26,463 nt of DNA from a virus (IMGVR_UViG_3300043772_003212:1-26463); one strand, 5' to 3'. Counted from the stretch's first letter, positions 3,763-25,387 are shown. The notes: generated by a model not told the origin, from the sequence alone. Program-made: numbers and translations.

Positions 3763-6700
3763 TTAGTCTACCAAGCCACTAGCAATAAGGTCCGCTACGG
3801 CACGCTCGTTGGTTGCCATGTGCGCAGGACGCCCGATACCGGGGCACTTTATCGCGCGCACGCCTGTAGCAAGAATCTGCTCCATGCGCTCGGTGCCATT
3901 CTCAGCAAAATCTCTAGTGTACACGTACACGAACTTGCCGGGATTTGCTTGAATCAAGGGCAAGTAGATGTCGATGCTGTTTTTTAGGTAGGCATCAACC
4001 AAGTAGATTTTGTCGAACTGTGCAAAGGGCACCAGCTCTAGGGAAGGCTTCTGCCCACCGGAGAACATGTATAGGATGCGCTTGCGTGGCGAGCCTGTAA
4101 TCCGCTGGGTGATCCAAGCATAGGCTTCCGCACCACTGACCCGAGTATTTTTGGCGACGAACACGCTGTTCTCACTGAGAAGCGGGCGCACGTAATCGTA
4201 CATGTAGTCACCAGACTGGCGCCCCGCATTTGGAACACCGCCGAACACGACGACCAGCGGCGCAGCCGGGTTGCTGTTGACATCCAGCTGCCCGTATGGC
4301 CCTGCCGCCGAGGAGACCGATTGGGATACAGGAGCAGGTGCAGGGGCACTTGAGCCATTCAGACATGAAGCCTCAATGCCGAGCACCTGAAGAACGTTGG
4401 GTACACGTGCATCAACCGCGTGCAGAAACGGGTCGTTCTTTCCGTCGTTGTTGTAGTATGCCTTCACCGCGTCACGGATGGGAACTCTGGCCTGCTCTCC
4501 CTTGCCTTGGGAGTCTAGGATAGCTGCGGTGTCAAAACGCAACCGCAGCATCTCCCCGATGCGCGGCGGAGGCGCTGTCATCCGAGCGTATTTGTTAAGC
4601 TTCTCGTAGTTGGGGTCTGCGAGGTTGGCCATCACCACGTCGAGCGAATCTGGAATCGCCCCCGTTTCGTTAGCCGCTTCTTTCGCAGTGCGCTCAGCTG
4701 GGTCGTAGGGGCGCCCAACGGTGAACTGGTCGCTGCCTCGGCCGAGCCAGTCAGTGGAGATCCACTTCGACCCAAGCCCCGGTGCCACATCAAATGATCC
4801 GCGGATGTCGTAGTGCGTCCAAGACGACGCCCCAAGCGGATAGCCCAGCTTGCCGCTTGTAGGCGAACCGGACAGCTCAGGGGTCGTACCTTGAATTCCC
4901 GTCACAGGGTTGACGTTCAGATAAAGGCCGCGTCCCCCGACCGGGATGCGCTTGGCGTCGCTCAGTCGCTTGAGTGACGCCCAGATCTGCAGTGCTCCTG
5001 GAGGCTGCCCCGAGGCAGAGGGGAGCTTGAGGTAAAAGTCAATCGCAGACCCATTGTTATGGTTGGAGTCTTTGCGCAACACACTGGCGAACATGATGCG
5101 AGCGCGCGGGTAGCGGATGCGCCAGTAACGCTCAAGCACATACATACAGGCGATGCTAGCCCACAGATTATTCTGTGTCGCCGCGTCACCTGACTTGCCA
5201 TCCAGTGTGTTCAGAAGATTCGTAGCAGAGGCGGTACCGAGATTTGCGGATATCCGCTCAGTCGCCCAGCATCGAAGCCACGTCGGACGCTTGTTAGCAG
5301 GGACAGCAGACGGGAAAGCGGCTGCGGCACGGCCATCGGCACAAGCATCCAAAGACGAGGCCAACAGTGAGTACGTAGAGCACTTTGAATCCTGCGCGCC
5401 CGAGCTCGGGTAAAGCGGCTCGGGCGAGCTAAGGTTACCACCACTGTACGGCGGAGACGACGGAGGCTTAGGATTCCCACCACCGACGACAGGATTTGAC
5501 GCAACGGTGCCTGTCGGCTGTGCCGGCGCAAGCTGCTGTGGGTAGTCTTCAGCACCAATCGGTACGACGACGCCGTGCAGCAGGTCCCACATGCTTGAGA
5601 AGTGTCCGCGTACGAACTGCACCGTCGTTGCCGCAGAGAGCATGCCGTCCGCTTCGCGCCTAAGATTGTGGCTCACTGCGGTGATGTAGCCGTAGTACTC
5701 GTCCTGCTTGGCCGCGTTACCCGACTGACCTAGAATCTTGGTACGGAACCACCTTCCGGGCTCTACGCCAGGTACTGCTGGCGTGAACGTAGTCTGCTCC
5801 TGCTTGTAGTCTTCTTTTATCTTCAGCGTGTTGGTGAAGTGTAGCTGCAGCGAACCGCTGTCAAACAGGTGTGCGCTCTGGTAGAACTGCATGACTTGCG
5901 CAGCAACAGTGCGGTAAAACACCGTGAGGCTTTGCGCGGTGCCGTCGCCTGAATTTGGCGGCGGGTAGAATGGCCACGTCGGGATATACATCCGAAGGCC
6001 ATGGTTCTCAATCTGGTCATCAATCGTGATGGGCAGCCCGGAGGCTTCCATGGCACCCACGACGACCTCGCCGGAGCTTGGCGGCGGGGTGGCATTGATG
6101 GTGGTCGCATTCAGGCGCTCACCGTCGTTGCGGCCGCGAGAAATCTGAGAAATGTACGCTGAGGGGATGGGTACCAAGGATTCAGACGTGAACGTCTGCT
6201 GCGAGAACATGCCTTCTTCAAAGAGTCGCTGAGTCGTAAGGGTGCGCGCACGGCGCCGCGCATTCAGGAAGTTCTCACGGAGCGTGGCGTCGTACAGCTC
6301 AGAACCCTTGTCAAGGTATCCAATCTCAAGGTTCTCACCGGAGTAACTCACCTTGGTCACCGCAGCAGTATAGAGCGGGTCCATGCGGAAGGGCTTGATG
6401 CGGTACACCACGACAGGCTGTACCCCGAGGATCTTTCCAAGCGGGGTCATCTCTTCACTACCGCCCACAGAGAGGTACGGAACCATCTCAATGAGCATGG
6501 AGTCCGGGACGAACATACTGGCCAGCAGCGAGCCAACATTCAGCGACCGCTGCGAGCCAAGGCCTGATGTCACTTGAGGCATCAAGGTGCCGAAAGACAC
6601 AGGCTCAATGCCTTGGAACTCCGGTGCAAAGCGCGTGGCGGTCTCTTCGTCGTAGATGACACGGACCTCGTCTGCGAGCCAGCCGCCTCCCAGCGAGGGA

Positions 6701-7209
6701 GGAAGCTTGATGCGCAGCAGCTTGCGCAGCATGAACATCAAGATCTCGCCGGCAGGGCGCCCGACGTACGTCTGCAGCTCAGCGTGAATGCTTTCCCACT
6801 CAATGATGCTGTACAGCGTTCCGACCGTGCGTTCGCCCTGCTGGAATATCTGAACCTTGGTGCGCCCCAAGAAGTCGAACCATCCCTTCACACTGACAGT
6901 GTAGGGCGCATGTGAGAGCACACCGTTGGGTTCGCGCACCATGTTGCTGCGAATAGATTCAACGCGGCCCCAACTCCAAGCGCAGCGCACTTGGTCACGG
7001 AGCACTACGAAGTCACCAGGGGTGAAGCTGGTGGTCGAGTCGGTGTAGGTACCGAGCATCGACAGGTGCATGTCCTCTCGGCCAGCCAAGTCCTTGGTGC
7101 CGGACATGGCCTGCATGCGGTTCTCGTAACGCGCGGCTTCGGTGTCACCATAGCGATGACGCTCAAGGATGATGCCCTTGGGGTCGATGTTCCCGGGGGT
7201 CCTACGCAT
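3763..7209 (-). CDS. Tail hub protein fused to M15-type murein peptidase and alpha/beta-hydrolase-like domain
   Basis: This 1148-residue protein has three parts. Residues 1 to about 550 look like a baseplate hub (beta-rich, 'GDFVVLRD', 'LEIGYLDKGSELYDATLRE', 'YYGYITAVSHNLRREADG'). After a Pro/Ser/Gly linker, residues about 605-810 hold a zinc-peptidase signature: S-N-H717-N-N-G-S-A-I-D724 and later W-T-H799-Y-D801-I-R803. This is the His/Asp/His ligand set of the M15 family, closest to the type ending HxDxR. A Pro/Ala linker leads to residues about 980-1148, an alpha/beta-hydrolase-like domain with 'LVVVFGGV', Ser1050 in 'MFSGGQ', Asp1072 in 'LVDAYL' and His1130 in 'PAHMATN'. The ATG at 7209 is preferred: AAGGAG and GGAG lie upstream, while the in-frame GTG at 7221 has no usable spacing. 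The peptidase likely opens peptidoglycan during injection; the hydrolase substrate is unknown. Confidence 0.8.
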   Translation of the reverse strand: MRRTPGNIDPKGIILERHRYGDTEAARYENRMQAMSGTKDLAGREDMHLSMLGTYTDSTTSFTPGDFVVLRDQVRCAWSWGRVESIRSNMVREPNGVLSHAPYTVSVKGWFDFLGRTKVQIFQQGERTVGTLYSIIEWESIHAELQTYVGRPAGEILMFMLRKLLRIKLPPSLGGGWLADEVRVIYDEETATRFAPEFQGIEPVSFGTLMPQVTSGLGSQRSLNVGSLLASMFVPDSMLIEMVPYLSVGGSEEMTPLGKILGVQPVVVYRIKPFRMDPLYTAAVTKVSYSGENLEIGYLDKGSELYDATLRENFLNARRRARTLTTQRLFEEGMFSQQTFTSESLVPIPSAYISQISRGRNDGERLNATTINATPPPSSGEVVVGAMEASGLPITIDDQIENHGLRMYIPTWPFYPPPNSGDGTAQSLTVFYRTVAAQVMQFYQSAHLFDSGSLQLHFTNTLKIKEDYKQEQTTFTPAVPGVEPGRWFRTKILGQSGNAAKQDEYYGYITAVSHNLRREADGMLSAATTVQFVRGHFSSMWDLLHGVVVPIGAEDYPQQLAPAQPTGTVASNPVVGGGNPKPPSSPPYSGGNLSSPEPLYPSSGAQDSKCSTYSLLASSLDACADGRAAAAFPSAVPANKRPTWLRCWATERISANLGTASATNLLNTLDGKSGDAATQNNLWASIACMYVLERYWRIRYPRARIMFASVLRKDSNHNNGSAIDFYLKLPSASGQPPGALQIWASLKRLSDAKRIPVGGRGLYLNVNPVTGIQGTTPELSGSPTSGKLGYPLGASSWTHYDIRGSFDVAPGLGSKWISTDWLGRGSDQFTVGRPYDPAERTAKEAANETGAIPDSLDVVMANLADPNYEKLNKYARMTAPPPRIGEMLRLRFDTAAILDSQGKGEQARVPIRDAVKAYYNNDGKNDPFLHAVDARVPNVLQVLGIEASCLNGSSAPAPAPVSQSVSSAAGPYGQLDVNSNPAAPLVVVFGGVPNAGRQSGDYMYDYVRPLLSENSVFVAKNTRVSGAEAYAWITQRITGSPRKRILYMFSGGQKPSLELVPFAQFDKIYLVDAYLKNSIDIYLPLIQANPGKFVYVYTRDFAENGTERMEQILATGVRAIKCPGIGRPAHMATNERAVADLIASGLVD

Positions 7210-7231
7210 GGTGTACTCCACTCCTTAGATG

Positions 7232-10078: not shown

Positions 10079-10829
10079 TCACCTTTGCTTTTGGCGGAAC
10101 TTCTCAAACATCTGGGCTTCAATCGCATCCACCTCTGCGATGCCGGTCTGAATAGGACCGTCGCTGGTGGATGATCTGCGCACGAGGTAGGAAGACCACT
10201 CGGAATCGCTCAGGGACATCAGGCGGTGCTCAAGCAAAGCTGAAGGCACCCAACCAGGCATTAGCGGGTTCAGTTCAGATGCTGGTGGCCGGGGAAGAGA
10301 CAGTTGCACGACCGACCATGAATCTTGGGCGCGGACTCTCTTCACTCTGTCCTCGATATCCGCGAAAATACAACTCCGTGTGCGCACCCACCTCGAGCGC
10401 CAGCGTTTCCGCAAACTCAGCATCATTGAGGTAGGCGTGCTTGAGCCACTCTGGGACAGTCTTGTCACGGTCCCATTGCACCCGACATACCGCCGTCGCA
10501 TATGCCTCTTCACGGGCAGCAACAGGAGCAGTAGCCCAGGGCATGCCCAAGGTAGCTGCGGCTACATTCCACACCATCATACGCTCATCGGTCTTGAGCA
10601 GTACCCGTGAGGGGATAGTGGCAGAGAGCTCTTGTCCTGAGACAGGGTCACGGTAACGCACGTTGATGTGAGCCACGGCAGCCACAACGTCCTCAGTGTC
10701 TGTGGGCTTGGGCGTGAGCGCTTTGGTAAAATCCTGCTTCTGTTGTTCAATCTCGTCCAGGCTCTTGGCCTTCTGCTTCGCCTCAAACGCCTGCTTCATG
10801 AGTTCCAGCTCGTCCACCGTGACCTCCAA
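10079..10829 (-). CDS. Tail assembly chaperone, frameshifted long form (gpGT-like)
   Basis: This is the proposed product of ribosomal frameshifting. It reads the first frame from ATG 10829 to Phe155, then moves +1 and reads 10363 down to the TGA at 10081-10079, giving about 249 residues. The second-frame segment (94 residues, starting ADIEDRVKR, with 'WVPSALLEHRL' and 'DSEWSSYLVRR') looks like real protein. It has no well-placed start codon of its own: the only upstream ATG, at 10522, lies where the first frame is clearly coding and gives Arg/Ser-rich noise. Such G/GT-type pairs load the tape measure during tail assembly. A shift of +1 (or -2) is needed because the second frame begins one base later. 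The pair lies immediately upstream of the tape-measure gene, as expected. Frameshifting itself is inferred. Confidence 0.7.
10275..10829 (-). CDS. Tail assembly chaperone, short form (gpG-like)
   Basis: This 184-residue protein lies between the tail tube and the tape measure, the usual place for the abundant short form of the tail assembly chaperone. It opens with a helical N-terminus (MEVTVDELELMKQAFEAKQK), then a compact central region ('HINVRYRDPVSGQELSATIPS') and a helical 'WLKHAYLNDAEFAETLALEVG' segment. The last 29 residues after Phe155 are Arg/Ser/Pro-rich and overlap the second frame, which is expected if they exist only when the ribosome does not shift. The ATG at 10829 has GGAGGT upstream. 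The gene begins just after an intrinsic terminator. No sequence motif identifies this family, so the call depends on position and on the two-frame arrangement. Confidence 0.7.
   Translation of the reverse strand: MEVTVDELELMKQAFEAKQKAKSLDEIEQQKQDFTKALTPKPTDTEDVVAAVAHINVRYRDPVSGQELSATIPSRVLLKTDERMMVWNVAAATLGMPWATAPVAAREEAYATAVCRVQWDRDKTVPEWLKHAYLNDAEFAETLALEVGAHTELYFRGYRGQSEESPRPRFMVGRATVSSPATSI
10362..10370 (-). promoter_or_regulatory. Candidate +1 ribosomal frameshift site UAU_UUU_CGC
   Basis: In the chaperone frame the codons here read TAT TTT CGC. A tRNA-Phe on UUU can re-pair one base forward on UUC, which moves the ribosome to GCG and into the second chaperone frame. The core UUU_CGN matches the +1 site of influenza PA-X (UCC_UUU_CGU). 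No convincing -2 slip sequence was found in the overlap. Confidence 0.55.
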
Positions 10830-17900: not shown

Positions 17901-19418
17901 TCAACCGTACCCGACGTTCTTGATGAGGAACATCTTGGTCGGGACCGACACCTTCAGGGCGCCGAACATCATGAGCAGGAACTGCTCAAGCGTCGTGCGC
18001 GAGAGGGTGATGGGGCGCATGGTGGTCGAGAGGAACTCGCGCCACTCAAGCACGTCCGGGCGGTTCTGGATGATGATCATCGGAGCCGAGTTGGGGCGCT
18101 GCTCGTTGAGGTCAACGATGACAGTGTCCCCATCCGGACGACGCGGCTTGCGGCCGACGAAGTAGAACTTGCGCGGGTCCGTCGGGGCCGACTCAGAGGC
18201 ACCAACAGTAGCGCGGAAGACGTTGTAGTAGCGGATCGAGCCGGTGCCCGAAAGCGCAACCGCGTTGTCGTCAAGCTCAATCTCCACCGAGCCACCGGCC
18301 TCAAGGTCAGTCACCGCGCCCGAGATGGGGAGACGGGTCACGCCCTGGTCACCCACCGCCTCAAGCGTGTAGTAGAACTTGACGCCAGCGACGTCCTGAG
18401 CACGCCACTTGCTGCCCGAGACAGGCGCGCCAACCGAAGCAGCCGCCACCGACATCGACAGCGGAGGACCATCGCCCTGCGTACGGATGATGGGGTGCTC
18501 GTCCCACGCCATGTGGACGACCTCGGTCAGCGGGACCGAGCCGCGCGACCAACCCACCGAGATGCCCTGCGTGTTGAACGTGAGCGGGCCATTGACGGCC
18601 AGGTCACCACGCTTGAAGGGCAGCAGGCTGTTCTGGTACCACGCGTAGTGGCGCGGGCTCATCAGCACGTGCGTGGGCGACGCGTAGTTCGGCGCCGACA
18701 CGAGCTGACCGATGATCTCCTGGAGCTCCTGGCCCGAGATGGTGGCGCCCTGAGCGTCGAAGACGTTCTGGGGAGCACCCTTCTCGATGGAGGCGACGAG
18801 ACCGTCGTACTCAAGCGGGTTGACGCTCGAGTCAGCGTGGAAGAGGAACTTCTCCTGGCGGAACAGGAGCTCGACCGCGCCGTCAGCGGCCTCAAGCGCG
18901 CGGGCCTGACCCACGTTGCCGAGGAGCTGCGTGTTGGCGAGGACGTCCGTGACCTGGCGGAAGACCGCCATGTACTTCATGCGGACGACGTTACGGTCGA
19001 ACTCGGACTGCGTAATCGCCGGCACGCCACCTTCCGCGATAAACGGCGAGGTCGCGGTACCACCGTAGCTCTTCCGGCGGACCCACTCAAGCACCGGCGT
19101 GGTCACCGACTGCTTCGCGAGCATCTTCCAGAACACCAGGGTGTCCTCGGTGAAGGTCGCGTTGTCGATGATGGGCTGGATGCTCTGGGGAACCAGCGGA
19201 GCGTACGAGCCGCCCGGGATGGTCGAGCTGTCGAACGGCATGCCCTGAAGCGGGTAGCCGACGCCCGCCTTGCGGAGCTCGGCATGCGACTTCAGCATGT
19301 TCTGGTTGAGGGCGTGCTGCAGCTGGCGAAGCTCAGCGATCTGAACGTCACCGCCGCGCGCTGCGAGCGACTGGAGGCGGTCCAGAGAAAGAAGAAGCTG
19401 GTCGGGGCTCATGCTCAT
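17901..19418 (-). CDS. Major capsid protein (HK97 fold) with inserted beta domain
   Basis: This 505-residue protein follows the protease and scaffold genes. Residues 1-60 form a helical N-arm that may be a cleaved delta-like region. Residues about 85-260 carry HK97-fold cues: 'FTEDTLVFWKMLAKQ', 'FRQVTDVLANTQLL', a long spine-helix-like 'QARALEAADGAVELLFRQEK', and 'ASPTHVLMSPRHYAWYQNSL'. Residues about 318-440 ('GVKFYYTLEAVGDQGVTRLP' region through 'VGRKPRRPDG') resemble an Ig or fibronectin-like insertion. The C-terminal part ('RPDVLEWREFLSTTMRPITL') completes the A-domain. The first ATG is chosen because GAGG lies 6 nt upstream; a second ATG is two codons later. A strong terminator follows the gene. 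Confidence 0.88.
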   Translation of the reverse strand: MSMSPDQLLLSLDRLQSLAARGGDVQIAELRQLQHALNQNMLKSHAELRKAGVGYPLQGMPFDSSTIPGGSYAPLVPQSIQPIIDNATFTEDTLVFWKMLAKQSVTTPVLEWVRRKSYGGTATSPFIAEGGVPAITQSEFDRNVVRMKYMAVFRQVTDVLANTQLLGNVGQARALEAADGAVELLFRQEKFLFHADSSVNPLEYDGLVASIEKGAPQNVFDAQGATISGQELQEIIGQLVSAPNYASPTHVLMSPRHYAWYQNSLLPFKRGDLAVNGPLTFNTQGISVGWSRGSVPLTEVVHMAWDEHPIIRTQGDGPPLSMSVAAASVGAPVSGSKWRAQDVAGVKFYYTLEAVGDQGVTRLPISGAVTDLEAGGSVEIELDDNAVALSGTGSIRYYNVFRATVGASESAPTDPRKFYFVGRKPRRPDGDTVIVDLNEQRPNSAPMIIIQNRPDVLEWREFLSTTMRPITLSRTTLEQFLLMMFGALKVSVPTKMFLIKNVGYG

Positions 19419-20218: not shown

Positions 20219-21139
20219 TCAACCACGCACGGACTGAGGTGCGGTGGGCGAGGAGACCGTTCTCAGAACGTGCTGAAGAACGCTCACAGCGTCCCGCCAA
20301 GACATGTCCTGGTGAGACTTCAGGAGACGGATGACCAGTGCTTCCGCCAGCTGGTCGGGAGCGATGCTGCCGGTCAGGTTCTCAAGGACCACCGATGCAA
20401 CATCGACGACGTGCTTCGTCGACACGTCGGACTTGTGGAGCTTGTGCCCAGCGGCGTTGAGCAGCGACTTGGCCACTGGCTCCCACCACGAGAGTTCGTT
20501 CTTGGGGGCGGCGGTGATGGCAAGCCACTTGACCTGCGACTTCTCGACCACCTTGCCCCGACGACCGCCGGGTTTCACCGAGCCTTCAATGCTGAAGCCC
20601 AGCTTGCGGTCCCCACCAGCGCGCTTCATCGTGCACGCCTTCTGGTAGAGCTCCGCGCCCCGGCGGTCCTCAAGGTAGAGCGCGCCCTTGACCTTGGCGC
20701 CCTTCACCATCTCTTCGCCGTTCGGTACCTGAACAGTGCTCACAGAGATGGGATACCCGACGACGTTGTGATTGCCAACAGGATGTTCATCGATAAGGAA
20801 ACCTTTTCCTTCGTTGTCCTTGTCGCCAACGAAGTAGCTCCAGTCGATTCCATCCGTCAGTACGATGTCGCCATCGGCATCCGGGGCTTCAGTGGTGGCA
20901 ATGCCTGAGATGTACCCAATCTTGGGGTCATCATTGGCACCCTTGGCCAGCACCTCGAAGGGTGCCCACAGGCTGATACGGTCGGCATCATTGAACAGCG
21001 AGACATCAAAGCCAGGGACGCCGTTGGCGCCCTTGGCAATGAGTTCACGACTGGCATCAATAAGTTGACGCGTCACGATGTTCAAATGGGCGGTCGCGCT
21101 CATGCGATGAACGTCTGTGCCCGATGCGTTACTAATCAA
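20219..21139 (-). CDS. Prohead protease (HK97/U35-type serine protease)
   Basis: This 306-residue protein sits between portal and scaffold/capsid genes. The His119 region (D-E-H-P, then GNHNVVGYPIS) and Ser183 in 'LGFSIEGSV' match the His/Ser pair of herpesvirus-fold prohead proteases at the usual 50-65-residue spacing. 'ATTEAPDADGDIVL' before them is typical of the family's first strand. The C-terminal 80 residues after 'VKWLAITAAPKNEL' are helical and may be removed or act as a capsid-targeting tail. The frame as given begins at a TTG (21139) overlapping the portal stop as TTGA. An ATG at 21103 is an alternative start giving 294 residues, but it lacks a clear ribosome site. The protease matures scaffold and capsid inside the prohead. 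Confidence 0.85.
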   Translation of the reverse strand: MISNASGTDVHRMSATAHLNIVTRQLIDASRELIAKGANGVPGFDVSLFNDADRISLWAPFEVLAKGANDDPKIGYISGIATTEAPDADGDIVLTDGIDWSYFVGDKDNEGKGFLIDEHPVGNHNVVGYPISVSTVQVPNGEEMVKGAKVKGALYLEDRRGAELYQKACTMKRAGGDRKLGFSIEGSVKPGGRRGKVVEKSQVKWLAITAAPKNELSWWEPVAKSLLNAAGHKLHKSDVSTKHVVDVASVVLENLTGSIAPDQLAEALVIRLLKSHQDMSWRDAVSVLQHVLRTVSSPTAPQSVRG

Positions 21140-22599
21140 GCAGGCTCAACACGGTAGTTCATCCGGCGGCCACCGACAAAGGCAGAGACGTCATCCTGAA
21201 TGATGTCAGGGTTGAGTGACACACCCTGCTCGACAAGCTTCTGCTGATACATCTGGTAAGAGGCGTTCAGCGGACGGTTGGAGACCGGGTCCTTCCACGG
21301 CGGCAGATTGTACATGGACCGCACTTCGTTCACGGACATGTAGTTCTGCACAGCGTCAATGAGGTTCTTCTGACGCTGCGATTCGCTGATGGAGTCGAAG
21401 CCATAGAACTCAAACTGGTAGTCGGGCCAGTAGGGCCAGATGATGGCTTCGTTGATTTGGCGCGCAATCCAACGGAGCAGTGGGCGGAGGCCGCGCTCCT
21501 TGGAGGCGACAATCTTGTCCTGCGGCGAGATGTCAGACTTGTTGCGCGTCTTGGCATTCTCGTCGCCGAAGGTGAAGCCCAGCTCTACCGGGTCCATGGC
21601 GTAGAGGGAGCACATCAGCTTGACCAACCAGTTGATCCAGTTGGCGAACTCCATGTCGCCCGGCGGCTTGCCGAACGGATGAACCTCAATCGACTCGTTG
21701 AGGTTGGGGTTCAACTGCACCACAGGAACAGACTTGTTGCGGCGCACGCCGACGAGCATAGCTTGGATGCTGTTCTCGAAAGCCTTGAAACGATCGGGCC
21801 CCATCAGAGACTTGATGGTGACCATGTTGTTGCCGTGGTAGCCGGTCGTGTAGATCTGGCTGTTGTGCGTCTGCGCGTTGAGCAGTGACGTCACCGTAGT
21901 GACGAGCATGGCAAGCTCAGGGTAGCCGTAGCCAAACGTCGTAATGCCGGGCAGCGAGTTGCGCACCGACCACGAGATTTCACCGGGGGCAAACTCGGCG
22001 ACCTTCTTGTTGTTGATGTACTGGCAGGTGCCAGTCTTGGCGTAGTCGAGCTTGCCATCCTTGACGTACTCGTCGAGGGTGATGTTGCGCCGGATGGTGG
22101 TCGGGTCCAGCAGGCGGAACGCGCATGGCTTGCCCATCTTGGTCTTGATGGACTGGATGTGCGCCTGGTCGACGGTCAGCGTGTAGTAGGTCATCGACCG
22201 GAGGATCTGCTCGAATCCCCCGTCCTGCCACTGACCGCCGGCGGTGTCGATGATGGACGCGATGTGGTCCATGCGGTAGCGGTCGACGCGCGAAGGAATC
22301 GCGTTGGGCTGCCGGAGCTGGATGGACCAGCCGTTCATCATCTGGCTGCGCAGACGGTTTGAAAAGTCCGACACCTGATTCATTCGCGTGCTGATGATGG
22401 ACGCCACCACTGGGGTGCGCGCCATCGCGAACAGCGTGTGGTAGGTGAGCGGCGTGACGCCGATGTGCAGGCCGGTGGACTGCGTCGAGGTGATTGCGGC
22501 AAGCGACGCGTTAAGCGGGTCGACGTTCGCGCCCTCGGGCGAGACCACGGCGACGCTGCGGGGAATGGGTGCCTTGGCCTTGTTCTTACGCGCGACCAT
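21136..22599 (-). CDS. Portal protein
   Basis: This 487-residue protein has the normal portal length and strong family cues. These include an N-terminal 'YHTLFAMARTPVVASIISTR' (helix before the wing), 'PCAFRLLDPTTIRRNITLDE', 'FGYGYPELAMLVTTVTSLLN' (stem and helix), 'RRNKSVPVVQLNPNLNESIE', and 'NWINWLVKLMCSLYAMDPVE' with LGFTFGDENA, the crown-side block of phage portals. Twelve copies form the DNA entry pore and the docking site for terminase and neck. It overlaps the end of the preceding frame by 14 nt, and its ribosome site AAGGAGG lies within that gene. This is one of the safest calls in the window. Confidence 0.93.
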   Translation of the reverse strand: MVARKNKAKAPIPRSVAVVSPEGANVDPLNASLAAITSTQSTGLHIGVTPLTYHTLFAMARTPVVASIISTRMNQVSDFSNRLRSQMMNGWSIQLRQPNAIPSRVDRYRMDHIASIIDTAGGQWQDGGFEQILRSMTYYTLTVDQAHIQSIKTKMGKPCAFRLLDPTTIRRNITLDEYVKDGKLDYAKTGTCQYINNKKVAEFAPGEISWSVRNSLPGITTFGYGYPELAMLVTTVTSLLNAQTHNSQIYTTGYHGNNMVTIKSLMGPDRFKAFENSIQAMLVGVRRNKSVPVVQLNPNLNESIEVHPFGKPPGDMEFANWINWLVKLMCSLYAMDPVELGFTFGDENAKTRNKSDISPQDKIVASKERGLRPLLRWIARQINEAIIWPYWPDYQFEFYGFDSISESQRQKNLIDAVQNYMSVNEVRSMYNLPPWKDPVSNRPLNASYQMYQQKLVEQGVSLNPDIIQDDVSAFVGGRRMNYRVEPA

Positions 22600-23773
22600 C
22601 GCGCACCTCCTTCATGACGTGCTCGATGTGCTTGACAGCTGCGGGCGCACCCTTCTGCAGCAGGAACGTTTGCAGCTCGACTGCGGTGCGGCCACCGTCG
22701 CGCAGCATGCGCAAGATGTAGTCCTGAGCACCCAGTGTGTTGCGGTAGTCGAGCTCGCAGGTCTCGCGGACGTAGTCATCCATGAGGGCGGTGGCAGGGC
22801 GCGGGTCGCAGATTCCCTTCGCAATGATCTCGGGAGCGAGCGACTTCTTGATGCCCTTCTTGGCCTCGTACTGGCGCACCACCTTCTCAGCCCAACGCTG
22901 CCCAGCTGTGCCGCCCCAGAGGAGCCAGCTGATGTAGGCAGCGGAGGTCTTGTCCTGGTGGTACTCCTTGTACTTGGAGTGGCGCGAGAAGAAGTTCTTC
23001 ATGCGCTTCACCGTCTCAATGGACAGCGCCTCACCGTGAGAGAGGTCAGACGCGCGCTGCACGCCTGAGCCAACACCAGCCTTCTTGGCCTGCTTGGTGT
23101 CGAGACCACCGCGCTTGTGCTTGCGACGAAGCTCGAGACCACGGCGAGCAGCGGAGCGCACGCCCTCAGGCGGCACGAAGCCTTCACCCTTGGCAACGAG
23201 TTCAGCACTGTACTCAGACTTGTACAAGGACAGCAGGTGCTTGGCCTTGACGTACAGCACGTCGATGTGGGCCTGCTCCTGCCCAGCGGCCACGCTCTTC
23301 TTGACGCGCTTGTCCGATGTCAGCGAGCGAATCTCGCGCTTGACCGAGGTCAGTTGCTTGATGACAGCCGCGCGCTGTTGCGTACTTGCGGCAGCCTTCC
23401 AAGAATCGCGAAGCTTCCGCAGGCGAGCGCGCAGTGCTTGAACGCGAACAGACTCTTTGGGGCCTTGAGCACCCTGTTTCTTAGCATCTCCGCGCACACT
23501 TCCCATGCGCGCCCACTTGCCGGGGGCAAGCTTGCGCCACTTCGTGCCATCGCTATGAATGGTAATGTGCCCGATAGGGTCCCCGCGAACTCCGGCCATG
23601 CTGCCAGCTTTGGTCAGCGACTCGCTGACCATGCCGACGTACTCGGCCACACTGGTCATGAAGCGAAGGACACCAGTCTCGGTGTTTGCCTGGTCGTAGA
23701 GCTCGAGGAAGTGCGCAAGGGCCGACGCCGAGACGTGCGTGCCCTGCGCCTTCATCAGCACAAGCTTGGCCAT
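22586..23773 (-). CDS. Possible separate product: phage protein with 'RRGLELRRK...YISWLLWGG' domain
   Basis: An ATG at 23773 with GAGG about 11 nt upstream, shortly after the nested gene's stop (23799), could start a 395-residue protein (MAKLVLMKAQGTHVSASALA...). Residues 58-93 repeat the 'DG..W.K...GkW' motif seen at the front of the 933-codon frame. Residues 199-305 ('VRSAARRGLELRRKHKRGGL', 'IETVKRMKNFFSRHSK', 'SAAYISWLLWGGTAGQRWAE') form a domain I recognise as recurrent in phage structural or protease-linked proteins, with no known function. The C-terminal 90 residues are helical and overlap the portal start. It lies directly before portal, so a minor head role is plausible. It is in the same frame as 22586..25387 and may be only the C-terminal part of that protein. 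Confidence 0.5.
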   Translation of the reverse strand: MAKLVLMKAQGTHVSASALAHFLELYDQANTETGVLRFMTSVAEYVGMVSESLTKAGSMAGVRGDPIGHITIHSDGTKWRKLAPGKWARMGSVRGDAKKQGAQGPKESVRVQALRARLRKLRDSWKAAASTQQRAAVIKQLTSVKREIRSLTSDKRVKKSVAAGQEQAHIDVLYVKAKHLLSLYKSEYSAELVAKGEGFVPPEGVRSAARRGLELRRKHKRGGLDTKQAKKAGVGSGVQRASDLSHGEALSIETVKRMKNFFSRHSKYKEYHQDKTSAAYISWLLWGGTAGQRWAEKVVRQYEAKKGIKKSLAPEIIAKGICDPRPATALMDDYVRETCELDYRNTLGAQDYILRMLRDGGRTAVELQTFLLQKGAPAAVKHIEHVMKEVRDGRA

Positions 23774-25387
23774 GAGGTCGCTGACCTCACGGGGGCGCTC
23801 AATAGTTTGTGCGCTCGGTGAAGACGGGGAGCATGGGGTAGCTGTCCCCGACTTCTGAATAGAGGTCTCCGTCTGGCATGATGATGGGCTTGCCAGGCTT
23901 GGGCCAGTTGTAGTTGGTGGCGGCGAGGTAGAGGTCGACGCCTCGGTCGGTGAGCCCGTCAGTGCCGATGGTGGCGTAGTGCTCGAACTCGTAAGGAGGT
24001 GCGCCAGGCTGCCGCTCTGCGGGGTCGGGCTTGTACTCTCCGTAGCTTGCGTCTTCTGCGGTGTACTGAGGGGCCATGGCTGCTGGGTCAACCATCGCGG
24101 CTGCCGGGTCGACTGCAGCGTCGGCGCCGACTTCTCCAGCGTCGGCTCTGTCGCCTTCGTCAGGCTCTCCGGTGATGGCGTCGAGTTCTGATTCGACGGC
24201 GTCGAAGTCAGGCTCTGCGTCAGCATCGTCTCGAACATCGTCAGGACCAGACTCGGGATCTTGTCCGCGCTCATCGTCGACGGGATCGACTTCAGCACCT
24301 GCTCTTGCGCGCTTTGCCATATCGCTTCTTCCTCCTGGGTGCGCACGGACTTGCGCATGTTCAGCTTGTCGTAGGTGTTGCGGTAGTGCTCAGACCCACC
24401 GACAGACTCAAGGTAGGCTGCCTGCACATGAGGCGGCACGAAGGACATGCCGGACTTGGCCATGTCGTGCCCGAAGTGAGCACCGATGCGATTGCTGGCT
24501 GCCATGATGTTGGCAGCGACCTTGTTCATGCCGGCGCCGTAGGCATCGACCTTGACCGTGGGCGCCTTCGACAGGAAGTCAGCAGCCATGCGCGTCGCGA
24601 CGTGAGCGCGGATGGTGGACATCGAGATGCCACCGAGACCGGCTTCCTCCATGGCGGTGCGCACACAGTCGTGGCTGCACGAGAACATCGGAGCAGTGGG
24701 CGAGTGCTCAGCCTTGCTCATGTAGTGAGTGGCCAGCTCGTCGGTGTCCGGCTCCCACTGGAACATGTGACCCTGCGCGTGCTGCAGCGCGATGCGGGTC
24801 TTGGCCTTGCCAGACTTGGCCATGCGGCCCATGCCGACGTGACCGCGCTGCACCGCAAGCATCTGGTCTGGAGTGTGGCCCGACTTCACCACCGAGTAGG
24901 CGGCGAGGTAGCGGTCCTTGTCCTCCGGCTTGCACGACTTGCACATCTTCATGAGCTTGTCGGGCGCCTCGCGCAGGGCTGGCATGGCCTTCTTCATCTC
25001 GGCGAAGGTCTGGCGGTGCCGGCGCTGGTGGAAGTTCACCGTGTAGCTGTTGCGCTTCTTGCCACCGTGCTCCCACGAGAGGACAGGCTTGCTGTCCATG
25101 TCACCGTCGGTGTCGACGGAAACGTGGTCAGGGTGGAGCTCGTCGGGCGGCAGGTGACCGTCGAGGTCGTACTTGCTGCGCATCAGCTGGTAGCCGAGCT
25201 CGGCGCCCTTCATCTCCTCAGATGCAGTGCCCTCGGCAGCCTCCATCTGATTCTGCTTGGCGCGCCCTTGGGTGTTCTTGGAGCCGTCTTTGACTTGACG
25301 CCAAGGCCCCTTGCCGGGCTCTTCCTGCTTCTGCCATTGCGCGCCATCAGCACGCGTGGTCACGACACCGGTGGGCATCTTCTTCAT
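22586..25387 (-). CDS. 933-codon open frame: TopIB-like domain, S/T/P-rich linker, phage domain of unknown function
   Basis: The frame runs unbroken from ATG 25387. Residues 1-35 carry a 'DGAQWQKQ...GPW' motif. Residues about 95-330 resemble type IB topoisomerases/tyrosine recombinases: 'AKSGKAKTRI' (GKxGK-like hairpin), R260 in 'STIRAHVATRMAADFL', and G306-H307 followed nine residues later by F316 where the nucleophilic Tyr would be. Residues about 390-535 are mostly Ser, Thr and Pro and look like an out-of-frame reading of the gene nested at 23799-24320. Residues 539-933 are ordinary protein again (see the separate entry). Either a true fusion with a dual-coding linker exists, or two genes happen to share a stop-free frame. 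No stop ends the first part, so ribosomes starting at 25387 should make the long form. The start has AGGG 8 nt upstream. Confidence 0.55.
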   Translation of the reverse strand: MKKMPTGVVTTRADGAQWQKQEEPGKGPWRQVKDGSKNTQGRAKQNQMEAAEGTASEEMKGAELGYQLMRSKYDLDGHLPPDELHPDHVSVDTDGDMDSKPVLSWEHGGKKRNSYTVNFHQRRHRQTFAEMKKAMPALREAPDKLMKMCKSCKPEDKDRYLAAYSVVKSGHTPDQMLAVQRGHVGMGRMAKSGKAKTRIALQHAQGHMFQWEPDTDELATHYMSKAEHSPTAPMFSCSHDCVRTAMEEAGLGGISMSTIRAHVATRMAADFLSKAPTVKVDAYGAGMNKVAANIMAASNRIGAHFGHDMAKSGMSFVPPHVQAAYLESVGGSEHYRNTYDKLNMRKSVRTQEEEAIWQSAQEQVLKSIPSTMSADKIPSLVLTMFETMLTQSLTSTPSNQNSTPSPESLTKATEPTLEKSAPTLQSTRQPRWLTQQPWPLSTPQKTQATESTSPTPQSGSLAHLLTSSSTTPPSALTGSPTEASTSTSPPPTTTGPSLASPSSCQTETSIQKSGTATPCSPSSPSAQTIERPREVSDLMAKLVLMKAQGTHVSASALAHFLELYDQANTETGVLRFMTSVAEYVGMVSESLTKAGSMAGVRGDPIGHITIHSDGTKWRKLAPGKWARMGSVRGDAKKQGAQGPKESVRVQALRARLRKLRDSWKAAASTQQRAAVIKQLTSVKREIRSLTSDKRVKKSVAAGQEQAHIDVLYVKAKHLLSLYKSEYSAELVAKGEGFVPPEGVRSAARRGLELRRKHKRGGLDTKQAKKAGVGSGVQRASDLSHGEALSIETVKRMKNFFSRHSKYKEYHQDKTSAAYISWLLWGGTAGQRWAEKVVRQYEAKKGIKKSLAPEIIAKGICDPRPATALMDDYVRETCELDYRNTLGAQDYILRMLRDGGRTAVELQTFLLQKGAPAAVKHIEHVMKEVRDGRA
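23799..24320 (-). CDS. Nested gene: acidic N-terminus and compact aromatic C-terminal domain
   Basis: This 173-residue protein lies entirely inside the 933-codon frame, one frame back (-1). It starts at ATG 24320 with a full AGGAGG (24331-24336) 10 nt upstream. Residues 1-90 are strongly acidic and low-complexity ('DPVDDERGQDPESGPDDVRD'). Residues 100-173 look folded ('DGLTDRGVDLYLAATNYNWP', 'KPGKPIIMPDGDLYSEVGDS', ending 'VFTERTNY'). Codons in this half end mainly in C or G like the neighbouring genes, while the overlapping frame reads as Ser/Thr/Pro noise. This is the main evidence that the nested frame is the real gene here. I do not recognise the family. An acidic tail and head-module position would suit a scaffold-like or minor head protein, but that is a guess. 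Confidence 0.72.
   Translation of the reverse strand: MAKRARAGAEVDPVDDERGQDPESGPDDVRDDADAEPDFDAVESELDAITGEPDEGDRADAGEVGADAAVDPAAAMVDPAAMAPQYTAEDASYGEYKPDPAERQPGAPPYEFEHYATIGTDGLTDRGVDLYLAATNYNWPKPGKPIIMPDGDLYSEVGDSYPMLPVFTERTNY
24331..24336 (-). promoter_or_regulatory. Full AGGAGG ribosome-binding site for the nested gene
   Basis: The site lies inside the topoisomerase-like coding region and encodes part of the 'QEEE' residues in that frame. It supports independent initiation of the nested gene at 24320. Confidence 0.65.

Follow-up and report, generated by a model that had tools for sequence, protein, structure and literature searches.

A probable dual-coding linker over a nested gene in a topoisomerase IB-fold fusion frame next to the portal gene of an SPO1-like phage fragment

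Organization of the locus

The DNA analyzed here (the window), a viral fragment of 26.5 kb, encodes head and tail proteins of an SPO1-like myovirus. Its portal protein gene lies at 21136..22599 on the minus strand, matches phrog_12 and PF04860 and is SPO1-like. The protease gene (20219-21139) and the major head protein gene (17901-19418) are also present, and the order of portal, protease, scaffold-like gene and major head protein equals that of the head module of SPO1 (Herelleviridae). In SPO1, small gp5.x genes stand before the portal gene, and no locus like the one described below is annotated there. No tRNAs and no Rfam matches were found. Elsewhere in the window, two overlapping frames between tube-like and tape-measure-like genes (10275-10829 and 10079-10522, together 10079-10829, minus strand) resemble a tail assembly chaperone frameshift pair, and the C-terminal half of the tail protein at 3763-7221 (minus strand) resembles, by eye, a D-Ala-D-Ala carboxypeptidase-type peptidase.

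Directly upstream of the portal gene, whose start overlaps its end by 14 nt, lies a frame of 933 codons (22586..25387, minus strand), which we call the long frame. An earlier sequence-only reading had described this frame as uninterrupted, its middle as dominated by Ser, Thr and Pro, and a 173-codon gene with AGGAGG and ATG as nested inside it in the -1 frame; each of these observations was confirmed. From its N terminus the long frame encodes domain A (residues 1-388, 24224..25387), a Ser/Thr/Pro/Gln linker that is poor in Arg (residues about 389-528, 23804..24223) and a helical region C (22586..23773), all on the minus strand. S, T or P makes up 79 of 134 residues at about positions 396-530, and the AlphaFold2 model predicts the linker to be disordered (all coil, pLDDT about 25). 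The nested gene, B, occupies 23799..24320 (minus strand), wholly within the long frame, and its AGGAGG ribosome-binding site (24331..24336, minus strand) is inside the coding sequence of A. The 173-residue product of B has an acidic N-terminal half and a conserved C-terminal part of about 90 residues; neither profile searches nor AlphaFold2, whose model of B was poor, gave a known homologue or a confident fold.

Searches of viral contigs returned relatives that cover the overlap wholly or partly (contigs L001, L002, L003, L004, L005 and L017/L018). They are all metagenomic fragments, related to one another, and represent about three independent lineages: the near group, the L004/L005 branch and L017. 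Gene B is kept in all of them. No unfused A, B or C was found: queries of the viral contigs with A, B, C and the portal gave only this same small group, together with contigs that match a single cassette of C, and the A query had no matches among the genome contigs or in the phages collection.

Domain A resembles topoisomerase IB in fold

Domain A, delimited by the AlphaFold2 model and the alignment, is 94, 79 and 45% identical to its relatives. The model of the whole fusion, built with nine sequences, has a mean pLDDT of 47.5 and reaches moderate confidence for parts of A and C. In it, domain A begins with an N-terminal β motif, followed by a helical core, and the two helices at its end (351-388) are encoded over the start of B. 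The predicted core (residues about 119-330, 24398..25033, minus strand), modeled with moderate confidence, matches topoisomerase IB and tyrosine recombinase structures by fold (PDB 6z01, 1k4s, 1a41 and 5jjv): in Foldseek searches against the PDB, the first twenty matches were topoisomerases IB, followed by XerH, with probabilities of 0.96-1.00 and a best E value of 4.8e-4. However, sequence-family searches of domain A, including Pfam and the PF01028 profile, gave no match, and sequence searches of the PDB gave nothing meaningful. We therefore describe domain A as topoisomerase IB-like in fold and not as a member of the family.

R181, R260 and H307, which by their spacing in topoisomerase IB we take to be catalytic residues, are invariant in the alignment of relatives. 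The remaining two positions of the proposed active site vary among the copies. At the proposed catalytic Lys position the window and L001 have Asp and L004 has Gln, and Lys is found only in L017. The proposed catalytic Tyr, placed by its spacing from H307, corresponds to codon 316 (24440..24442, minus strand), which is TTC (Phe) in the window; L001 also has Phe, whereas L002, L003, L004 and L017 have Tyr. These substitutions suggest that the window copy of domain A may be unable to cleave DNA.

The two joined domains had been read as unrelated, which needs some qualification, since a short β motif, DGxxWxKxxPGkW, is common to both. It occurs near the start of A (window 25348, minus strand) and again inside C (23551, minus strand).

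Region C and a possible separate C product

Region C was defined by alignment and AlphaFold2 as helical. It contains a cassette of about 109 residues (22850..23176, minus strand) that matches phrog_2859, is found in the near group and is missing in L017. The cassette has a stand-alone counterpart of about 100 amino acids in Synechococcus phage S-CBS4 (L038:6025-6333) and also matches proteins of many Vibrio phages; matches of C in annotated phages fall mainly in this inserted region.

Just after the B stop lies a 10-bp hairpin (23770..23792, minus strand) enclosing GAGGT and an ATG at 23773, from which C might be started on its own. A 44-nt stretch with the hairpin folds at -21 kcal/mol in the window (z -4.45) and has a z of -5.17 in L004. 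The hairpin sequence hardly varies among six contigs, and these features could allow a coupled restart, in which ribosomes ending B at 23799 would open the hairpin and start again at ATG 23773 to make a 395-residue C protein in the near group. Against this idea, both the hairpin and the start are absent in L017, and the hairpin nucleotides also encode a conserved peptide. We give the coupled restart slightly less than an even chance; it would add to the fusion with a nested gene favored below and does not compete with it. Of the three products suggested earlier for this locus (933, 173 and possibly 395 residues), the third thus has its start in the window and its near relatives and lacks it in L017/L018, so that a separate C product is possible in the near group and is not conserved beyond it.

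The long frame is open in all relatives

The A-linker-C frame has no internal stop, and B lies inside it in the same phase, in the window, L001, L002, L003, L004, L017 and, as far as it extends, the partial copy in L005. In L004, B is longer and the linker is longer to match, giving 967 codons in total including the stop. The fusion of L017 has 819 residues and is about 45% identical to the window in A and about 49% in B. Across the relatives, length differences in B are always multiples of three. A stop between the two domains, which would have indicated separate genes, was sought in all relatives covering the region and not found, so the linker frame stays open down to the lineage of 45% identity. 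Moreover, L017/L018 have no in-frame ATG after B, but only GTG/CTG without a clear ribosome-binding site. Taken together, no lineage offers A an end before that of C.

In a single genome, however, openness is weak evidence. When B was recoded with the codon usage of this phage, no stop arose in the long frame in 19% of the window trials and in 8-33% of those for the other complete copies, which is unremarkable and justifies the caution of the sequence-only reading that codon bias might keep such a frame free of stops. A codon-permutation test was uninformative, since P(open) was 1.0 in the near group. What goes beyond chance is the openness in all relatives, with B indels in multiples of three, along with a codon choice in B that tracks the long-frame residue.

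Codon choice in B carries an imprint of the long frame

In this arrangement, each third codon position of B is read as a second position in the long frame. G occupies 12% of B third positions in the window against 27% expected (z -5.5), while none of the other window genes falls below z -1.9. The deficit runs throughout B and persists in the diverged lineages. From B codon 41 to the end, the window linker contains 2 Arg against 17.5 expected from simulated synonymous versions of B; L003, L004 and L017 have similar deficits.

We then made use of sequence context, as a B codon NAG before a purine places Arg in the long frame (Arg/Lys for NAG/NAA) and before a pyrimidine places Ser (Ser/Asn). The NAG:NAA ratio in window B is 0:6 in the Arg/Lys context and 15:2 in the Ser/Asn context. 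The counts pooled over the window, L004 and L017 are 4:19 versus 51:7 (P = 2e-9, a value that overstates independence because the lineages are few and related); L017 alone gives P = 0.07. The corresponding ratios in other genes are 438:120 and 395:44. A weak neighbor effect is thus present in ordinary genes too, with log odds of -2.20 to +1.00 in the other 18 gene segments tested, compared with -4.39 in B. NCG codons follow the same direction: they make up 2 of 56 (4%) in B versus 24-57% in every other gene (about 33% elsewhere). None of the 28 sites in the window, L004 and L017 where NCG would yield the common Arg codons CGC/CGT has it, which points to avoidance of the Arg residue and not of rare codons. 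The synonymous codons avoided in B are exactly those that place Arg in the long frame, a pattern unique to B in the window. The simplest explanation of this imprint is a protein-level constraint on the linker, and the Ser/Thr/Pro linker is, judging by codon choice, almost certainly translated.

These data bear on whether A, B and C are instead three ordinary genes, with the A-C frame open only through the residues of B and codon bias and C started from ATG 23773. Such an arrangement would agree with the 19% of phage-typical recodings that stay open and with the GAGGT upstream of ATG 23773 in the near group. Yet in none of the relatives does A have its own stop, so that it must be read on into C, L017 has no ATG for C, and the codon choice of B depends on the long-frame residue. 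A codon bias that simply avoids stops, raised earlier as the reason for the open intervening frame, can explain neither the dependence of NAG/NAA on Arg versus Ser nor the near-absence of NCG in B only. Three separate genes are therefore very improbable, and the frame open in all relatives and the codon choice in B favor a true fusion whose linker is dual-coding.

Alternatively, B could have been acquired recently from a donor with low G3, its odd codons reflecting that origin and no selection on the linker. The low G3 throughout B fits this origin, but simple donor bias does not predict a NAG/NAA choice that switches with the next base, and the deficit persists in diverged lineages. We regard a donor origin of the codon pattern as equally improbable and retain the fusion with a translated linker.

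Selection on B and constraint along the overlap

The start signals of B are conserved, with AGGAGG in the window, L002, L003 and L017, GGAGG in L004, and ATG in all five. Over its C-terminal 90 residues, B retains dozens of invariant positions even where overall identity falls to 49%, and its conservation exceeds that of the linker. From codon 86 to the end of B, the differences between the window and L003 fall at positions 1/2/3 in numbers of 3/1/15 in the B frame and 1/16/3 in the long frame. This gathering at B third positions indicates that sequence selection acts on B there. In five genomes, codon usage from codon 86 also scores higher for B than for the long frame and nearer to typical.

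The first part of the overlap behaves differently. Codons 1-40 of B, which overlap the final helices of A (24201..24320, minus strand), have 0 differences in 120 nt among the window, L001 and L002, and the comparisons with L003, L004 and L017 show no clear third-position excess in either frame. By this substitution pattern the segment is constrained in both frames. Its codon usage is gene-like in the long frame and off-frame-like in B in the same five genomes. The suggested check for substitutions that are synonymous in the nested frame only thus gives an excess at B third positions for codons 86 to the end and no clear excess for the first 35-40 codons or so. Within the proposed dual-coding linker of about 520 nt, dual constraint is found mainly in those first codons of B; the rest of the linker is constrained in composition and not in sequence.

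That B is an untranslated, accidental open frame in the fusion linker is the least probable account, for although B lacks a known homologue or confident fold and is off-frame-like in its first 40 codons, its ribosome-binding site is conserved, it outconserves the linker with substitutions at its third positions in the C-terminal half, and its last 90 residues keep their invariant positions. A programmed -1 frameshift giving an A-B fusion was also considered: the overlap of the window, L001 and L004 contains no slippery heptamer X XXY YYZ, and the one site in the L017 overlap is not common to the other contigs. The long frame and B form a nested pair in which both frames are open in relatives, B has its own conserved start signals and selection is seen in both frames.

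Discussion

According to the above-described analysis, it is very probable that this locus uses the same DNA for at least two proteins, a fusion with a dual-coding linker and the nested B. Translation starting at ATG 25387 would give the 933-residue fusion, composed of the topoisomerase IB-fold domain A, the disordered Ser/Thr/Pro linker and the helical C. Translation starting at ATG 24320, behind the AGGAGG in A, would give the 173-residue acidic B in the -1 frame, ending at 23799. The linker would then be the alternative-frame reading of B: selection on B would hold the B sequence, while its synonymous codons would keep stops, and nearly all Arg, out of the linker. From the codon and conservation patterns we infer that both frames are translated.

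Most likely, A, B and C were once three consecutive genes, and A lost its stop, extended through B and reached C. Probably the start of B extended into A, or the end of A into B, and A was then read through B into C. Because the searches gave no unfused ancestor of A, B or C, we infer the order of these events from codon usage. The gene position, beside that of the portal, suggests that the fusion might bind DNA as a head or packaging protein. The full combination, with A extended through B to C, a linker cleared of Arg, a near-group hairpin switching on a separate C, and a head-associated topoisomerase-fold fusion that is losing or has lost catalysis, is tentative, and we think it somewhat doubtful as a whole.

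Nested genes have been known since phiX174 (PMC8227390). Like phiX174 E within D (PMC8227390), B is a phage gene lying wholly inside another, in another frame and with its own start. Unlike in phiX174, a small ssDNA phage, the outer gene here is a two-domain fusion, and the overlap falls mainly in a disordered linker. A closer parallel may be the polymerase spacer and PreS of hepatitis B virus (HBV), where a nested gene of structural type likewise covers the flexible spacer that separates two folded domains in a larger protein. Lauber et al. describe how PreS and the spacer overlap and how this overlap arose (PMC5604429), and Pavesi proposed from codon usage that a short gene stood between two genes that a de novo spacer frame later joined (PMC8227390). 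As in HBV, the overlap is split into zones by codon usage (PMC8227390, PMC5604429). In contrast to HBV, the present genome is that of a tailed dsDNA phage, and B, in the -1 frame, stops where the linker does, whereas the HBV nested gene continues over the downstream catalytic domain. The parallel is one of architecture, drawn by analogy, and we claim no homology.

Extended dual coding on one strand is familiar from small viruses and has rarely been demonstrated in large tailed phages, in which annotation programs tend to discard such overlaps; a limited literature search found no described case of this kind there. The context test used here, in which synonymous choice is conditioned on the residue in the other frame, could be applied across phage genomes to find further cases. 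The locus offers a codon-level demonstration of such coding. It also gives, in a phage, a counterpart of the route suggested for the HBV polymerase spacer, in which two genes would have been joined over a retained third.
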